Shown here piece by piece: positions 1 to 12,110 of a DNA stretch of 32,367 nt. Position numbers and translations under genes: made by a program. This stretch comes from Bacteroidia bacterium (lineage in GTDB: Bacteria > Bacteroidota > Bacteroidia > NS11-12g > UBA955): assembly GCA_023268875.1 (NCBI GenBank), contig JALRKL010000188.1:1-32367 (forward strand), read 5' to 3'. Each line of letters opens with the position of its first letter. Positions within the stretch are counted from its first letter, which is position 1. Below the pieces are notes generated by a model, which was given only the letters and a program-made list of their open reading frames with translations, searched no databases and was not told where the DNA came from.

Positions 1-1449
1 AGCTTCAAAATTATCACGCAGAATTATGCGCCCATCGACTAAATTATTACTATTGTGATCGTATTGAGGAGGAATTGATTTGAATTGCAATAACTCTTCT
101 TTTTCCATTGAATAAAGTTGAGAGGAAATTTTTTCATTTAACTCTTGGTTCAAAGTGTTAAACCAAGATTTAAATTCTTTTAGGGGGGGAAACCCTTGTT
201 GACTTATTCTTAAATTAATTTGACGGGCTGTAGAAATTACATCACGGTAGCCTAATTCTTGTACATGCTCCAATTGTGATAACAAGTGATAAACTTGAGG
301 ATCGTTGTGCGTGTGTTTTTTTAAGATATCTGTAAAATCTTGAAGATTTTTAAGTTGTCTTTCAATTGGTTTTTGATAAGATTCCCAAGCATTTCTTCTT
401 GCAGCGCGAGCTTGATGTGCAGCCTCTTTTTCAATTTTTTCTAAAATAGATTCATTTGAAATGCCCTCTGCTAAAATCCATTGTCGCATTTTTAAATTAC
501 AATCAAATTCCCTTTCCCAGGCCAATCGTTCATCTGTTTTATAGCGTTCATGGGATCCAGAGGAGGAATGCCCAAGGGGCTGAGTTAGCTCAGTAACATG
601 TATTAATACAGGAACATGTTCCTCACGAGCTAATGTAGAAGCTTTTTCATATGCTGTAATTAATTTCAAATAATCCCACCCTGGAACAGTTATAATTTCA
701 AATCCTTTCTGGGTGGCTGTGCGTTGAAATCCTTCAAGGGCTAGAGATATACTTTCCTTTGTGGTTTGCTCATCGTTAGCTACGGATATACCATATCCAT
801 CGTCCCAAACGCTAACCACCATAGGTACTTGCATAACACCAGCTGCATTAATAGTTTCAAAAAACATTCCTTCGCTTGTGCTTGCATTTCCAATTGTTCC
901 CCATGCAATTTCATTACCATTATTTGAAAATAAAGGAGCCTTTTTAGTAGAATATTCCCTATATATTTTAGAGGCTTGTGCAAGTCCAAGCAATCTAGGC
1001 ATCTGTCCTGCAGTAGGAGAAATATCTCCACTGTGGTTATATTGATCTACTAGGGGAATCCAATTTCCTTTTTCATCTTTTATCGGAGTCACAAAATGCC
1101 CTCCCATTTGCCGTCCTCCAGACATAGGTTCACGACTTTTATCTAAATCTGCATATAGTGCTGCAAAAATATTTTCAGCCGTAAGAAGTCCTTGAGCCAT
1201 AAGTAAGGTTTGATCTCTGTAATAACCGGCTCTAAAATCACCTTTTTTAAAAAAATGGTTCATAACCAATTGAGGAACTTCTTTACCGTCTCCAAATATT
1301 CCAAATTTACCTTTTCCAGAAAAGACTTCTCTTCTGCCAATTATACTGCATTCGCGACTTAAAACGGCAATTTTATAGTCATGCAATACACGTTCTTTAA
1401 ATGTATCAAAGCTGATATTAATAGATTCGTCTTGGTTTTGAAAATTCAT
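1..1449 (-). CDS. 2-oxoacid (branched-chain type) dehydrogenase E1, TPP-dependent, probably alpha/beta fused; 3' end outside window
   Basis: Reading the minus strand from ATG at 1449 gives MNFQNQDESINISFDTFKERVLHDYKIAVLSRECSIIGRREVFSGKGKFGIFGDGKEVPQL...YYRDQTLLMAQGLLTAENIFAALYADLDKSREPMSGGRQMGGHF...AWGTIGNASTSEGMFFETINAAGVMQVPMVVSVWDDGYGISV..., open to the window edge. It is missing from the ORF track because it runs off the edge. Confidence 0.88.
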   Translation of the reverse strand, partial: MNFQNQDESINISFDTFKERVLHDYKIAVLSRECSIIGRREVFSGKGKFGIFGDGKEVPQLVMNHFFKKGDFRAGYYRDQTLLMAQGLLTAENIFAALYADLDKSREPMSGGRQMGGHFVTPIKDEKGNWIPLVDQYNHSGDISPTAGQMPRLLGLAQASKIYREYSTKKAPLFSNNGNEIAWGTIGNASTSEGMFFETINAAGVMQVPMVVSVWDDGYGISVANDEQTTKESISLALEGFQRTATQKGFEIITVPGWDYLKLITAYEKASTLAREEHVPVLIHVTELTQPLGHSSSGSHERYKTDERLAWEREFDCNLKMRQWILAEGISNESILEKIEKEAAHQARAARRNAWESYQKPIERQLKNLQDFTDILKKHTHNDPQVYHLLSQLEHVQELGYRDVISTARQINLRISQQGFPPLKEFKSWFNTLNQELNEKISSQLYSMEKEELLQFKSIPPQYDHNSNNLVDGRIILRDNFEA

Positions 1450-1522
1450 ATGGTTCGACGAAAATACAAAAAAAATTACGGTAGCTTAAATAGGGTTTTA
1501 AGTGAATTTATAACCTATTAAT

Positions 1523-4321
1523 TTAAAACCATTTACGCGTAAATAAACTGCTAATAGTATTTAAACGTGGAGTGAAAATAAATCTAATTTTAGTGGCATA
1601 ACGAGATTGTGTGGGTTCAAATCCATTTGAAGAATACAATGGGAAAAAAATTTCAAAATAATCAGGCACAAGATTAAATTTTACTCCAGAATCAAAATAT
1701 CCAACAGCGTTGCGGTTTTGGTTTTTCAAAACCCCTAAATCTCCATAAAATTCAATCCATTTCCATAGTCCAATTGAACCATTCAAAGAGACCATATAAT
1801 CATTTGCAGAAGATTCTTCAAAAAATGCTTTAAAACCGCCCTCTACAGGGATAAATTGTTGACTATAAATGCCTGAATCTTCAGATCGCCCTAAATAATC
1901 GTAACGAAACAAATAGTCTGGTGAACGGTTTAGATTAAAATCAAAAAATTGAGTTTCAGTTCTATTATGCCATAAAAACTTACCTGCAAAAAAACGCAAC
2001 GAAAGTTGTCGTCCACTTCGAAAGAGTTTTCTATACTCACTACTAAAATAGATTTTAGCGAAATTATTAGCGATTTCTGCGTTAGAATTAGTAGAAAAGG
2101 TATTTACTGCATTACTATTTTCATACCTGTGTAATAAGCTTATAATACTATAATCTGGACTTACTTCAATCTCCGGATTTCGATCACGAAAAACATTATA
2201 CCATGATACATTCAATAGTTGCCTTTTGTTCGACTGCAGATTATAAGGTCTAAAATACATTGAAAATGAGGGTTGAATTGAAGTGTATCTTAGGTTAGTA
2301 TTATAATGATAGCTTTTTCCTGTTAAAAAAACTTGATTGAGGTAATTTTTACTTTTATGGTTTATAAATCGATATCGTGTTCGAAAAAAACCGACCCATT
2401 CACTCTCTTTAATTGAGTATTGAGGATGTAAATCCAATTCAAAGGGTTGATTTTTTACTCGTGTATTATAAATTCTCATACCTGCAGTAAAGCCATCATA
2501 AATATTAAAATCAGATATTGGATGATAAAAGATTTGATTTCTTTTTAAGTTTTCGCTATCACCGTAAAATGTAAATTGTAAAGGCTTTAGTCCGGTTGAA
2601 GATTGTAAAAATTTCCAATTATTCAAATGGTTTTTATCTGGCAAAAATTGATTTGAATTGATGGCCACAAAATCAATTTCTTTGTCGCCAGGAAAGGTAA
2701 TTATTGTGTCTTTTCCAGTGAATTCAATCCATTGTTCATAAATGAGTTTATCTTTTTGAATTAAATCTAGTTTTACAGGAGCTGACTTATCGTTTTTTTC
2801 ACTTAATGTAATTTCGATTTCAGTTGGTTTTTTGGTTACCTTTTTTATGAAAAAATCATGGGCTTCTCTGTCAGAAAGGTATGTTTTAAAAAACCAATCA
2901 AGATTTTTTTCTGTATAATTTGATAATGATTTTTGAAGTTCTTTTTTACCCCGTTGTTTGGAAAAATCTAATAGGCCTTTTTTAATGACGTCTTCATCCA
3001 AAAAAGCATCTAAATAGTGAAGTCCACTTCCCACATGATAAGGGGATGCGTAAAGTTCATTTGATTTGGTAAGTTTTTCTTTTCCTAATGTATCCGATTG
3101 TTGTCGGTTTGCATGTTCACTAAATTCATAGATAAATGAAAAACTTTCGTTATATCCTATATTTGCAGCACTATAATTTTTAAATGGTCTTATTCCAAAT
3201 ACTGAAAAGGATTGCAATTCCCCTAAAAATTTAGAATCAGGATAATATGTATCTACATATTTCATAAGGATATAGGTTTGAATTCCACCAGGAATCCAAT
3301 GATTTTTTCGTTTGTCAATCACCAAAAGTTCATTTAAATATGAAGCTAGATAAGCTTTTAAAAATTTAGTTTCATAGATAAATTCTTCAGGGAAAGGTTC
3401 TAAAAAAGAAAGCGCTTCACTTATACCTACTATAGGATTACGATTATAATCCTTTTTTAATACCATAATTTTATTATTTGGAATAGGACTCAAATATTTT
3501 TTTATGAAAGTATCAATCCGATTCACAGATGAGACTAGATCAATTGAAGAATTTTTACTTGGTAGAATATCGGTAAGAATGTAAAAAGAATCAGTTGTTT
3601 TTATTTCTTGAAAAGTGTTTTCCAATTGGAAAACGAACTCAGGACAGCTCAATTCATTAGAGCTAAAGGTTTCTGTTTTAATTAAATTAGAAATATTTTT
3701 TTCACTAGAAAGTAATTGTAAGTTAGTATGAAGCACATAACTATTTGGGAATGTAAATTTAATAGAGAATTGACTAGGTAAAATACTGTTATCACGAAAA
3801 CCTAGATTACTGTTTAAGAGCCAATCATCTTCAAAAAGAGGTGCCACAGTAATAAATGTATCTCTCAATAAAAAACTTTTATCAGATTGAATCCCTACAC
3901 CAGTGAAAGTATCATCTGGAATTTTAATTTCATACGCTACTTTAATTTCTATTGATGCATCTGGCGCTAAAGGTTTTTCTAAAATCACTTTAAGCACATC
4001 GATTTGATAATCAAGACGATTATATAATAATTCATTTGAATTATTACTTATAGATTGGATTTGTGTATAGCCTAGTTTACTTTTTGAACGCAAATAAAAA
4101 CTTCGATTAAATTGATTTGCTAAATGATCGGCTAGGGGAGAGGGGGCACCTTTATATGAATTAGACCAATCATAGAGATATAAATAAGATAACGGAGCTT
4201 TAGATGTGTTTTTGAAATAAATGGTTTGAGAAACAGTTATACTCGCTGAGTTTGGTTCTAATAAAGCATCAATTGAATATTGTGTCTGGCTCCATAAGGG
4301 CAGGTTCATATAGAGGCCCAT
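1523..4321 (-). CDS. M1-aminopeptidase-like (gluzincin fold) protein with a C-terminal outer-membrane-barrel-like region; apparently lacks a signal peptide
   Basis: 932 aa ORF. The N-terminal half resembles Bacteroidota M1-like proteins (FLKAYLASYLNELLVIDKRKNHWIPGGIQTYILMKYVD). The C-terminal half is rich in alternating aromatic beta-strands and ends ...FIFTPRLNTISSLFTRKWF. N-terminus MGLYMNLPLWSQTQYSID has no full signal peptide. Confidence 0.65.
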   Translation of the reverse strand: MGLYMNLPLWSQTQYSIDALLEPNSASITVSQTIYFKNTSKAPLSYLYLYDWSNSYKGAPSPLADHLANQFNRSFYLRSKSKLGYTQIQSISNNSNELLYNRLDYQIDVLKVILEKPLAPDASIEIKVAYEIKIPDDTFTGVGIQSDKSFLLRDTFITVAPLFEDDWLLNSNLGFRDNSILPSQFSIKFTFPNSYVLHTNLQLLSSEKNISNLIKTETFSSNELSCPEFVFQLENTFQEIKTTDSFYILTDILPSKNSSIDLVSSVNRIDTFIKKYLSPIPNNKIMVLKKDYNRNPIVGISEALSFLEPFPEEFIYETKFLKAYLASYLNELLVIDKRKNHWIPGGIQTYILMKYVDTYYPDSKFLGELQSFSVFGIRPFKNYSAANIGYNESFSFIYEFSEHANRQQSDTLGKEKLTKSNELYASPYHVGSGLHYLDAFLDEDVIKKGLLDFSKQRGKKELQKSLSNYTEKNLDWFFKTYLSDREAHDFFIKKVTKKPTEIEITLSEKNDKSAPVKLDLIQKDKLIYEQWIEFTGKDTIITFPGDKEIDFVAINSNQFLPDKNHLNNWKFLQSSTGLKPLQFTFYGDSENLKRNQIFYHPISDFNIYDGFTAGMRIYNTRVKNQPFELDLHPQYSIKESEWVGFFRTRYRFINHKSKNYLNQVFLTGKSYHYNTNLRYTSIQPSFSMYFRPYNLQSNKRQLLNVSWYNVFRDRNPEIEVSPDYSIISLLHRYENSNAVNTFSTNSNAEIANNFAKIYFSSEYRKLFRSGRQLSLRFFAGKFLWHNRTETQFFDFNLNRSPDYLFRYDYLGRSEDSGIYSQQFIPVEGGFKAFFEESSANDYMVSLNGSIGLWKWIEFYGDLGVLKNQNRNAVGYFDSGVKFNLVPDYFEIFFPLYSSNGFEPTQSRYATKIRFIFTPRLNTISSLFTRKWF

Positions 4322-4489
4322 TGGAGTATTGATTTAGCTTTCTTTCTGCTGAGTTTAATTTCAAGCATTTGGTTGATTGCAAATCCGACATTGGAGGATT
4401 CAAACATATTAAAGAAAGTAGCTATTTTATTCGCAGCACTGCCGATTTTGATAACAATGCTTATAATCATATTGTTGGCCTTTTTGTAG
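4322..4489 (+). pseudogene. Possible remnant of a small membrane protein (open frame without start codon)
   Basis: Plus-strand frame WSIDLAFFLLSLISSIWLIANPTLEDSNILKKVAILFAALPILITMLIIILLAFL* (stop TAG 4487-4489). No ATG/GTG upstream before the stop at 4295-4297. Two hydrophobic segments separated by a charged loop. Confidence 0.3.
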
Positions 4490-4619
4490 GGGGGTGACGA
4501 AATAGCTACGATAATATCGCCATCCAATATATTTAAATTCAAATTGATTTAGAATTACCCGAATTATCGGTATTACAAAAGGCACCGACTGGTCCAACAC
4601 TAATCTAGAATTATTAACT

Positions 4620-5288
4620 TTATTTTACGAGATAACTATAAAGGTTATCCTCAACGGGTTTATCTAATTTGAATTTAAAATGCACTACTGGCGAATTAGT
4701 TTTGGGCATTTTGCCTTGCTTAATGCTACTTGGAACTATTTCAACGTCGCCGTTATAATAGAAATCAACCCCTTCCGAATCTGCTTTTTTAATAAACAAT
4801 AATATTCGCTCAGAGTTAATTACATTTTTGAATTCATCACTATCGATTTTCCGATTTGAACGCGACTCCCAAGCAAACACTTCTTGGTTAATAAAATGGT
4901 CATTATAATTGATATCTCCCTCTAAATCTTCTGATTTGTTATAGGTAACAAAACAAGGCGTGGCCTTATCTCTTGTTCGATATCCATATATGGTGCTCGA
5001 GAAATCATTATCCCAATTCAAAATACGACAAACATCTCTTCGACTGTATTTTTCAATTGTAAGAAATCCACTGACATTCTCTGATCGGTGAAATGCTTGT
5101 TCAAATTTGTTCTGTGAATAATTGATATTATCCGTTAAAAACAATCTAAAATAGGCACTTCTCAATTGTTCTTTGAAAAAATCAGTCAGTATAAATTGAT
5201 CTTTGCCGTATCCAATTATCGGTTCTACTTTCGCCTTGAAAAAGTTAAAATTCAGTACATTCAACAGCTGATTAATGTCAGAATGCAC
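4620..5288 (-). pseudogene. DUF3427-containing C-terminal fragment of a DEAD/DEAH (SNF2-like) helicase; catalytic parts missing
   Basis: EKYSRRDVCRILNWDNDFSSTIYGYRTRDKATPCFVTYNKSEDLEGDINYNDHFINQEVFAWESRSNRK...LFIKKADSEGVDFYYNGDVE matches the DUF3427 pattern normally at the C-terminus of about 1000-aa helicases. The frame continues upstream of the GTG start as ARSLVALQERLLELYKIKL before a stop at 5346-5348. Confidence 0.7.
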
Positions 5289-5401
5289 AAGCTTAATTTT
5301 ATAAAGCTCTAATAATCTTTCTTGAAGGGCGACTAAGCTACGCGCCTACTGAGACACAAAGTATTCTCAAACCTCAAGCGTTCGGTAATTTTATGAGCAG
5401 G

Positions 5402-5620
5402 AATAAGAGAAGCATGACTCATAATATTGCTTAATTATAAAAATATATGCAAAATAAGCCACCTTTATAATGCTTAATATGTACAAAAATGTAATAATAA
5501 GCCGTTTATTGCCTAAATATGTATCTAATCCAACAATGTAAAAATAAGCCATGTATATAGTGCTTATTATGCACAAAAATGTAATAATAAGAAATTTTCA
5601 AGATTGAAACATGCTTAATT
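5402..5620. repeat. AT-rich array of five imperfect AATAAG(C)...TGCTTA dyad units
   Basis: AATAAG starts at 5402, 5453, 5496, 5543 and 5586 (steps 51/43/47/43). Each is followed by TGCTTA or TGCCTA. Segments 5451-5501 and 5541-5591 are 51-bp copies with about 6 mismatches, exactly 90 bp apart. Confidence 0.7.
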
Positions 5621-5646
5621 CACACATTTTAGCTCCAAATGGGCAC

Positions 5647-5674: not shown

Positions 5675-5675
5675 G

Positions 5676-5748
5676 TGATCCCGCTGGGACTCGAACCCAG
5701 GACCCATACATTAAAAGTGTATTGCTCTACCAACTGAGCTACAGAATC
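5676..5748 (-). tRNA. tRNA-Lys (anticodon UUU)
   Basis: Minus strand GATTCTGTAGCTCAGTTGGTAGAGCAATACACTTTTAATGTATGGGTCCTGGGTTCGAGTCCCAGCGGGATCA: complete cloverleaf, anticodon stem ATACA/TGTAT, loop CTTTTAA, T-arm CTGGG-TTCGAGT-CCCAG. Confidence 0.96.
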
Positions 5749-9437: not shown

Positions 9438-12050
9438 ATGAGTTCGGCGAGCACATCGAAGAAGGAAACGCCTTTGATGAAACAATACAACCAAATTAAG
9501 TCGCAATACCCCGGAGCGATTTTGTTATTCCGTGTGGGCGATTTTTACGAAACATTCGACGAAGATGCGCGAATTGCGAGTAAAGTTTTGGGTATTGTTT
9601 TGACCAAACGTTCCAATGGAGCGGCATCGGAAATGGATTTAGCCGGATTTCCTCATCATTCCCTAGACACCTACTTGCCCAAGTTGGTTCGCGCAGGATA
9701 TCGCGTGGCTATTTGCGATCAGCTTGAAGACCCTAAACTCACGAAAACCATTGTAAAACGTGGGGTTACGGAGTTGGTTACTCCTGGGGTTAGCTACAAC
9801 GATAAAATATTAGAATCTAATGAGAGTAATTATCTGGCTTCCCTGCATCATACAGATGGCAAATGGGGAATTGCGTTCTTAGATATCTCAACGGGCGATT
9901 TTCGCTGTACGGAAGGGGATTTATCATTAATTCAGAAAATGATTGCGAGCTTTCGGCCCAAGGAGTATGTATTCTCAAAAGCCCAAAGCAAGCGAATATT
10001 TGAGCATTTTGGTAATTTCAAAAGCCAACAATTACTCGAAGATTGGGTGTATCAATTTGAACATGCCGAAGGAAGTTTAAATAAGCAGTTCAAAACGCAA
10101 AATTTAAAGGGTTTTGGGGTTCAAGCATTAGAAATTGCCGTTGTTGCCGCGGCAGGAGCTTTGCATTATTTAGAGCAGACGCATCACCATCAAACGGCCC
10201 ATATTCAGGAAATCAAGCGAATCGACGACAGCCAATTTGTTTGGCTGGATGGCTTCACCATCCGAAACCTCGAGTTGGTTCGTCCTATATACCCAGAGGG
10301 CAAGAGCCTACTGGAAATAATTGACCAGAGCACAACGCCTATGGGCAGTCGTTTGCTTCAACAATGGATGCTTCTTCCTTTAAAGGATTTAAATTCCATT
10401 CAAGAGCGATTGGATACCGTTGGTGTTTTTGTTTCTGATACCGATTTACTCACAGGAATTCAGCGGGAATTAAAAGATATTGGTGATTTGCAACGCTTGT
10501 GTTCAAAGGTGGCGTTACGACGCATTAACCCTAAAGAAATGTTGCAGCTTTCGCGCAGCCTAAAAGCATTGGAATCGCTTAAAAAATTGATTTCCAATAG
10601 TCCATCGAAACGATTACAATCACAGGCTTCTGCGCTCCGGGATACCCATTCCATATTTCATTCTATTGACGAACACATTTCAAGTGAAGCCCCAATTAAC
10701 ATCAGCAAGGGTGGCATTTTCAATGCTTCGGTAAACGAAGAATTGCGGGAGTTGCGTACCTTATCGGTTAGCGGTAAGGACCGACTTATTGAAATTCAAC
10801 ATCGGGAAATTGATATTACAGGTATCAGTTCGTTAAAAATTGGCTTTAATAATGTTTTTGGATATTACTTAGAAGTCACCCATGCCCATAAAGACAAAGT
10901 TCCTGAAACTTGGATTCGCAAACAAACTCTTACGAACGCAGAGCGATACATCACTCCTGAACTAAAAGAATACGAAGAAAAGATATTAAATGCCGAAGAC
11001 CGCATTCATCAAATAGAGCTTCAACTGTGGGAAGATTATTTGAATGTTATGGCGGAAGCAATTTTACCCATACAGCAGGACTGTCAAAGAGTGGCAGAAT
11101 GGGATGTATTAGCCGGTTTTGCTTCAGTTTCAATAAAGAGAAATTATGTACAACCCAGAGTTAGCGATTCCCACGTTCTGCAATTAAAACAATGCAGGCA
11201 TCCGGTTATAGAGGCCTTAATGCCTCCTGATCAAAGTTATGTTCCAAATGATATCTATTTAGACAATCAAACCCAACATATGATCATTTTAACCGGTCCG
11301 AACATGAGCGGTAAAAGCGCGGTTTTACGACAAACAGCACTAACGGTTTTGATGGCTCAAATGGGATGTTTTGTACCCTGCAGTGACGCTGAAATTGGAC
11401 TAATAGACAAAGTTTATACCCGCGTGGGGGCTTCCGACAACATCAGTTTGGGAGAAAGCACGTTTATGGTAGAGATGACAGAAACGGCGAGTATTTTGAA
11501 TAATTTGAGCGACCGCAGTTTGGTACTATTAGATGAAATTGGTCGCGGTACCTCCACGTATGACGGGGTAAGTTTGGCATGGAGCATTGCCGAATATATA
11601 CAAAGTCACCCTGGAAAACCCAAAACCTTATTTGCCACGCATTACCACGAATTGAACGAATTGGAAGCGAAACTTGAAGGGGTTAAAAACTATCATATTG
11701 CAGTTCGCGAAAGCGGACAGAATATCGTATTCCTGCGCACATTGGAACCAGGAGGCAGCGAACATTCCTTTGGTATTCAAGTGGCACAGTTGGCGGGCAT
11801 CCCAAATGCGGTTTTAATCAGAAGTTCGGAAATATTAAAGCAATTAGAAGATTCTAGATTAAAAAATCAACAACGCAGCACATTAAAGAATACCGAAACA
11901 AAGCCCGTTTATCAATTAAACATGTTTCAAACTGCCGATCCGAAATTCGAAGAAATCAAGAGAAAAATCGAAAAACTCGACATCAATACCTTGTCCCCAA
12001 TTGAAGCGCTATTGGAATTGCAGAAACTTCAATTAATGGTTAATGGTTAA
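9438..12050 (+). CDS. mutS: DNA mismatch repair protein MutS
   Basis: KKETPLMKQYNQIKSQYPGAILLFRVGDFYETFDEDA; Walker A GPNMSGKSAVLRQ; LVLLDEIGRGTSTYDGVSLAWSIAEYI; ATHYHELNELE. Start taken at MSSASTSKKE (9438). Confidence 0.97.
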   Translation: MSSASTSKKETPLMKQYNQIKSQYPGAILLFRVGDFYETFDEDARIASKVLGIVLTKRSNGAASEMDLAGFPHHSLDTYLPKLVRAGYRVAICDQLEDPKLTKTIVKRGVTELVTPGVSYNDKILESNESNYLASLHHTDGKWGIAFLDISTGDFRCTEGDLSLIQKMIASFRPKEYVFSKAQSKRIFEHFGNFKSQQLLEDWVYQFEHAEGSLNKQFKTQNLKGFGVQALEIAVVAAAGALHYLEQTHHHQTAHIQEIKRIDDSQFVWLDGFTIRNLELVRPIYPEGKSLLEIIDQSTTPMGSRLLQQWMLLPLKDLNSIQERLDTVGVFVSDTDLLTGIQRELKDIGDLQRLCSKVALRRINPKEMLQLSRSLKALESLKKLISNSPSKRLQSQASALRDTHSIFHSIDEHISSEAPINISKGGIFNASVNEELRELRTLSVSGKDRLIEIQHREIDITGISSLKIGFNNVFGYYLEVTHAHKDKVPETWIRKQTLTNAERYITPELKEYEEKILNAEDRIHQIELQLWEDYLNVMAEAILPIQQDCQRVAEWDVLAGFASVSIKRNYVQPRVSDSHVLQLKQCRHPVIEALMPPDQSYVPNDIYLDNQTQHMIILTGPNMSGKSAVLRQTALTVLMAQMGCFVPCSDAEIGLIDKVYTRVGASDNISLGESTFMVEMTETASILNNLSDRSLVLLDEIGRGTSTYDGVSLAWSIAEYIQSHPGKPKTLFATHYHELNELEAKLEGVKNYHIAVRESGQNIVFLRTLEPGGSEHSFGIQVAQLAGIPNAVLIRSSEILKQLEDSRLKNQQRSTLKNTETKPVYQLNMFQTADPKFEEIKRKIEKLDINTLSPIEALLELQKLQLMVNG

Positions 12051-12110
12051 TGATGAGTGATGAATGATGAGTGATGAATTATGAGTGATGAATTATGAAT
12101 TATGAGTGCC
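12034..12110 (+). repeat. Heptanucleotide tandem repeat, about 11 diverged units (TAATGGT / GAGTGAT / GAATTAT family)
   Basis: From 12034: taatggt taatggt taatgat gagtgat gaatgat gagtgat gaattat gagtgat gaattat gaattat gagtgcc, exact 7-bp register. Confidence 0.85.

Follow-up and report, generated by a model that had tools for sequence, protein, structure and literature searches.

What is an ordered array of inverted repeats doing beside a tRNA-Lys gene? The window, by which we mean the whole stretch of 32,367 nucleotides that was analysed, is one entire contig of a 2.14-Mb Bacteroidia genome in 228 contigs. An earlier note on this DNA had described five repeat units and had offered integrase arm sites, iterons, a multi-site operator or folded structural repeats as possible readings. 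Comparison with related genomes makes it probable that the array is the promoter and autoregulatory, subfamily-specific operator of an AAA_14-DUF4143 ATPase gene (PDC-S01 type), a gene that has been deleted here but for 29 codons, leaving the operator orphaned.

The repeat array and the gene remnant behind it

The arrangement reported earlier was largely reproduced. AATAAG starts at 5402, 5453, 5496, 5543 and 5586 (spacings 51, 43, 47 and 43 bp), unit 4 is a perfect 7-bp dyad, AATAAGC-N12-GCTTATT, at 5543-5568, and the 51-bp copies at 5451-5501 and 5541-5591 lie 90 bp apart and are 88% identical. The partner TGCTTA was found at the offsets claimed for four units (26, 18, 18 and 26 bp) but not in the middle one, which has TGCCTA at offset 14. 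TRF called a period of 43. This density is beyond chance, as none of 1000 dinucleotide-preserving shuffles of the region 5395-5645 reached five AATAAG or four dyad pairs (mean 0.013 dyads per shuffle against the four pairs observed), and the best self-repeat score was 33, whereas 300 shuffles gave at most 13. The source genome contains the array once, which rules out a dispersed genomic repeat.

The earlier statement that the region holds no convincing gene was incomplete, because the minus strand carries a gene remnant starting at 5422. The remnant (5336-5422, minus strand) consists of the first 29 codons of an AAA_14-DUF4143 ATPase gene (MSHASLIPAHKITERLRFENTLCLSRRVA) followed by a stop, with 66% identity over 29 amino acids to the intact gene that the closest relative has at this tRNA-Lys locus (L038:2144-3604, E 6.6e-8); a whole-genome search also recovers it (E 4.3e-5). 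The whole array (5402-5636, minus strand), as delimited by the sequence itself, self-comparison, TRF and shuffles, is the 5' region of this remnant, with 5402-5422 as its coding start. The AATAAG of unit 1 corresponds to CTT-ATT, codons 6-7 of the remnant, so the near symmetry of offsets to which the earlier note had drawn attention is partly accidental.

Read towards the remnant, the proximal operator-promoter unit (5424-5509, minus strand) runs GCTTATT(5502-5496)-N17-ATTAAGC(5478-5472)-N12-GCTTATT(5459-5453)-N17-ATTAAGC(5435-5429)-AATATT-ATG, and it is matched by the sequence model R1 described below and aligns with 78 orthologues. Between its last two half-sites, TATATTTT (5440-5447, minus strand) takes the place of the Bacteroidota -7-like box in the orthologue alignment and differs from the consensus TAnnTTTG at one base. 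An upstream duplicate of the operator (5541-5619, minus strand), 90 bp from the proximal one, comprises AATAAGC(5568-5562)-N12-GCTTATT(5549-5543) with TCTTATT at 5592-5586; it was recognized by self-comparison and gave a weak R1 match at 5522-5598. The five units of the window are thus the operator plus this duplicate.

The tRNA-Lys(TTT) gene (5675-5748, minus strand; Rfam match to tRNA) is followed 3' by a terminator-like hairpin at about 5672-5648 on the same strand and then by the array. Beyond the remnant, at 4620-5288 on the minus strand, is the C-terminal fragment of a DUF3427/type IV methyl-directed restriction enzyme gene (PF11907, E 1.9e-59; positions 729-952 of 953 of the PADLOC mREase_IV profile), which presumably came to adjoin the ATPase remnant via a deletion. 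Two decayed defence-type gene fragments are therefore adjacent at this locus. No intact DUF4143 gene was found in the source genome, which is about 97% complete, and the family has left there only the remnant and, on another contig (C202), a C-terminal match of 61 residues. As no intact DUF4143 protein was found, the operator in this genome is most likely an orphaned relic.

The proposed operator layout in front of intact ATPase genes

A search of the family genomes with the array DNA returned one clear relative, on contig C3 of G064, the closest relative, with 73.7% DNA identity to the window over 5352-5502. The order there is the end of an acetyltransferase gene, which borders tRNA-Lys in the window as well, then tRNA-Lys, an aminotransferase gene, a similar array and the ATG of an intact ATPase gene. 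The product has 487 amino acids with both AAA_14 and DUF4143, and the array is directly 5' of the ATG, 1.8 kb from tRNA-Lys. The intact protein matches seven PDC-S01 profiles in PADLOC (best E 4e-60); full-length AAA_14 plus DUF4143 proteins of this type are found in the relatives, and the source genome retains 29 codons. A third member of the genus (G058) has the ATPase gene directly after tRNA-Lys. The gene adjoins tRNA-Lys in three genus members and is placed elsewhere in other genomes, and the tRNA-Lys neighbourhood of the array is incidental. At one further locus (L053), about 500-600 bp upstream of the ATPase gene, there is a sequence resembling a partial tRNA 3' end (GTTCGAATCTCGCCATCCCGACT), where ARAGORN called no tRNA.

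Relatives of the gene were retrieved at 79 public genome loci, nearly all from Bacteroidota, and orthologues are present in about eight family members; phage records yielded only distant relatives. Most of the approximately 79 orthologues are 57-79% identical to the closest relative's protein, and they have a common layout of AWTARR-N12-14-YYTAWT, a TAnnTTTG box, often a third half-site, and the ATG. TAnnTTTG is known as the -7 promoter element of Bacteroidota. The dyad lies at -85 to -35 in 58 of the 79 orthologues (1.5% in shuffles) and the box at -48 to -12 in 66 (4% in shuffles), while a third half-site near the ATG is present in 50. The half-sites are AATAAGC/GCTTATT in the window and AATARR/YYTATT in relatives, with spacers of 12 bp and about 17 bp that bracket the promoter box. 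In one Myroides locus (L107) the array continues outward as half-sites that alternate at spacers of 12, 17 and 20 bp, and so resembles that of the window. Only 13% of the orthologue repeats stand out by repetition within their own sequence, so the case for operators in the orthologues rests on conservation. Of the readings offered earlier, it is the multi-site operator that is supported.

The specificity of the operator for this gene was assessed with R1, a sequence-only model of the upstream region built from 72 sequences, none from the source genome; a site was called strong at E < 1e-3. In 20 whole genomes all strong sites were at the ATPase gene and none elsewhere. Eighteen of the 20 had a single strong place, in front of the gene, and two Myroides genomes had extra copies before or after it. 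Across 69 family genomes, strong sites were found at the gene in G063, G041, G025, G058, G064, G067 and G020 and at the window remnant (E 1.9e-4), directly before the start codon of the remnant reading frame (5422-5336, minus strand) and with the conserved arrangement of half-sites and box. The sole exception was a chance match within unrelated coding sequence in G004, and apart from that match the array was not found in family relatives lacking the ATPase gene; a weak DNA match in G043, inside a DEAD-box helicase gene, was likewise attributed to chance. In these genomes the array follows the ATPase gene and does not depend on the tRNA locus.

A linked regulator gene was considered and rejected, as no neighbouring gene is conserved across 73 loci (the largest shared family occurs at four), and therefore no regulator except the product travels with the gene. 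Together with the restriction of R1 sites to the gene, this indicates that the operator would be read by the ATPase or by some factor dedicated to it.

At six loci (L089, L107, L119, L126, L134 and L155) the operator array occurs again 3' of the gene, and in L107 this downstream copy takes in a similar terminator-like hairpin, its loop being inverted. In L246 and L273 an array of the type that belongs to a different DUF4143 subfamily (seen in L230) precedes that of the gene itself, as though one gene had taken the place of another. Sites resembling attC (GCACAAC...GTTGTGC) occur just 3' of the ATPase gene in L095, L103, L109, L123, L083 and others, and also about 140-165 bp 5' of it, which suggests that in many Bacteroidota the gene is carried, promoter included, as an integron-type cassette. 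No attC site was recognized by eye beside the window's locus.

Arrays of other DUF4143 genes

More distant DUF4143 members within this order have their arrays at the corresponding position but with other sequences. The array of L249 has four copies of TTACCCTAACTTTGTGACA, that of L231 has three GTCAGTTGGCTGACTAAATTAATAG-like units and that of L229 is TTGCGATTATGTTCGCAA, and in L069 TGTCGTTTATATTCGACA and its inverse flank the promoter box. Significant promoter-proximal repeats (repeat score against shuffles, threshold z 3) were present in 81% of 57 such DUF4143 genes, whereas the rate was 10% among 110 control upstream regions taken from the retrieved loci, both percentages being approximate because start codons were chosen by rule rather than annotation and the controls came from partly different genomes. 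Among pairs with 60-80% protein identity, 76% had upstream sharing above the 99th percentile of shuffles; the rate was 33% at 45-60% and at or near chance below 45%. Each DUF4143 subfamily thus appears to have its own operator sequence. What the sequences establish is where the array lies, that it is conserved, and that it is specific to the gene and to the subfamily. That such family-specific repeats usually lie just before the start codon suggests that each ATPase may control its own gene.

In other phyla, arrays or long palindromes were present in Acinetobacter, Moraxella, Haladaptatus and Calditerrivibrio, and no upstream array was found in the Thermus, Wolbachia, Sulfuricurvum and Eubacterium members examined. 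One member, on an Acinetobacter plasmid, shares 48% identity with the protein of the closest relative, and its 46-bp palindrome includes AATAAG-N14-CTTATT, with half-sites identical to those of the window; this palindrome has runs of A and T on either side and could be a terminator. If most DUF4143 genes have subfamily-specific promoter arrays, as found in this Bacteroidota order, the DNA target of each protein could be read from its own upstream region, its binding, regulation and trigger would become testable gene by gene, and orphan arrays could be used to trace lost copies.

The ATPase as candidate reader and alternative explanations

The structure of the intact relative was predicted from an alignment of 68 diverse members with pLDDT 86 and pTM 0.86 (with 28 close orthologues as input, pLDDT had reached a poor 60.6). 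The model has an AAA+ core, helices and strands in winged-helix order at residues 271-341, and a C-terminal PD-(D/E)XK-like domain whose E366, E394 and D396 show no or almost no variation across the 68 members, with E412 and K414 completing the PD-(D/E)XK-like pattern in orthologues. Its closest folds are 2qen, ORC/Cdc6 and MalT; Foldseek matches include 2qby, 1w5t and 1fnn, at query TM-scores of about 0.27-0.35 that denote modest global similarity. The likeness of the predicted fold to DNA-binding or regulatory ATPases is consistent with, without proving, binding to its own operator. We propose that the winged-helix domain would contact the half-sites, with the ATPase probably forming an oligomer across several of them, and that the ATPase would thereby repress its own promoter until released by a signal, which could be nucleotide state or infection.

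Autoregulatory operators are a known kind of element. Toxin-antitoxin and restriction-control (C protein) genes are autorepressed through multiple inverted half-sites at their own promoters, a layout shared by the array studied here; they differ in that the window type has no separate small regulator gene, its presumed regulator being the ATPase. Archaeal Orc1/Cdc6 proteins have origin-recognition boxes near their own genes, and the ATPase resembles them in combining an ORC-like AAA+ core and winged helix with repeats adjoining its gene, although there is no sign of an origin, the fold similarity is modest as noted above and the ATPase has the additional PD-(D/E)XK-like domain. Integron cassettes with their own promoter offer a further parallel for the many orthologues beside attC-like sites, but not for the window's locus, where no such site was recognized by eye. 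The gene behind the array has the ATPase plus PD-(D/E)XK-like layout described for PDC-S01 in PMC12988326, of which the window retains the 29 codons only. According to that paper, PDC-S01 ranks fourth in frequency among defences across all prokaryotes and is a phage-defence candidate, most such candidates still awaiting validation. The passages on PDC-S01 consulted make no mention of an operator, autoregulation or DNA target, and subfamily-specific promoter arrays on candidate defence ATPases were not found in the literature searched, which took in few subscription journals or preprints.

A wider idea, to which we give a small chance, is that ATPases of the PDC-S01/DUF4143 class read their subfamily-specific arrays both for self-repression and for self-marking or mobility through the nuclease-like domain; the arrays would then be a barcode deciding which copies coexist or replace each other, and orphan arrays would be fossils. 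The arrays could also be end or target sites for homing- or transposition-like movement of the gene, with the PD-(D/E)XK-like domain acting there. The high conservation and patchy phylum-wide spread of the gene would suit such movement, as would the copies 3' of the gene, which an operator does not need, and the foreign-subfamily array in L246 and L273. However, a downstream copy occurs in only six of about 78 loci, the placement of the arrays follows the promoter box and start codon, and mobility is already explained for the many orthologues that sit between attC-like sites; we consider this reading unlikely.

Less probable again, and in our judgement a poor candidate, is an operator for a host-encoded regulator common to many genomes. 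The array does have the layout known from classical bacterial operators that overlap a promoter, but there is one strong place per genome, at the ATPase gene, and related genomes differ in specificity between subfamilies. Structured RNA, whether a leader or small RNA repeats, is very improbable: the perfect dyads could form hairpins, yet in orthologues the -7-like box is downstream of the central dyad, so a transcript starting at the box would exclude the dyad, and covariance models (Rfam) matched only the tRNA in the window. A small RNA or riboswitch was rejected on the latter ground, and the earlier options of iterons and folded structural repeats lose their footing on both. Integrase arm sites, or the attachment region of a tRNA-Lys island, can be set aside almost entirely, for although the array is placed 39 bp beyond the 3' end of the tRNA gene, where GC content is low, it was not found in those relatives that lack the ATPase gene, it tracks that gene wherever it is located, other family members have no tRNA beside the gene, another gene separates array and tRNA in the closest relative, and there is no linked recombinase gene, the only two tyrosine-recombinase genes of the source genome being off the window's contig.

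The operator reading thus remains the preferred one for the array. Elsewhere in the window, GC content drops from about 43% to about 30% left of tRNA-Lys (1-5600), as in an acquired region, and this low-GC region encodes a 932-amino-acid protein (1523-4321) without a Pfam or NCBIfam match. A tandem repeat of AATGATG, with about eight units, lies at 12042-12105, immediately 3' of mutS.
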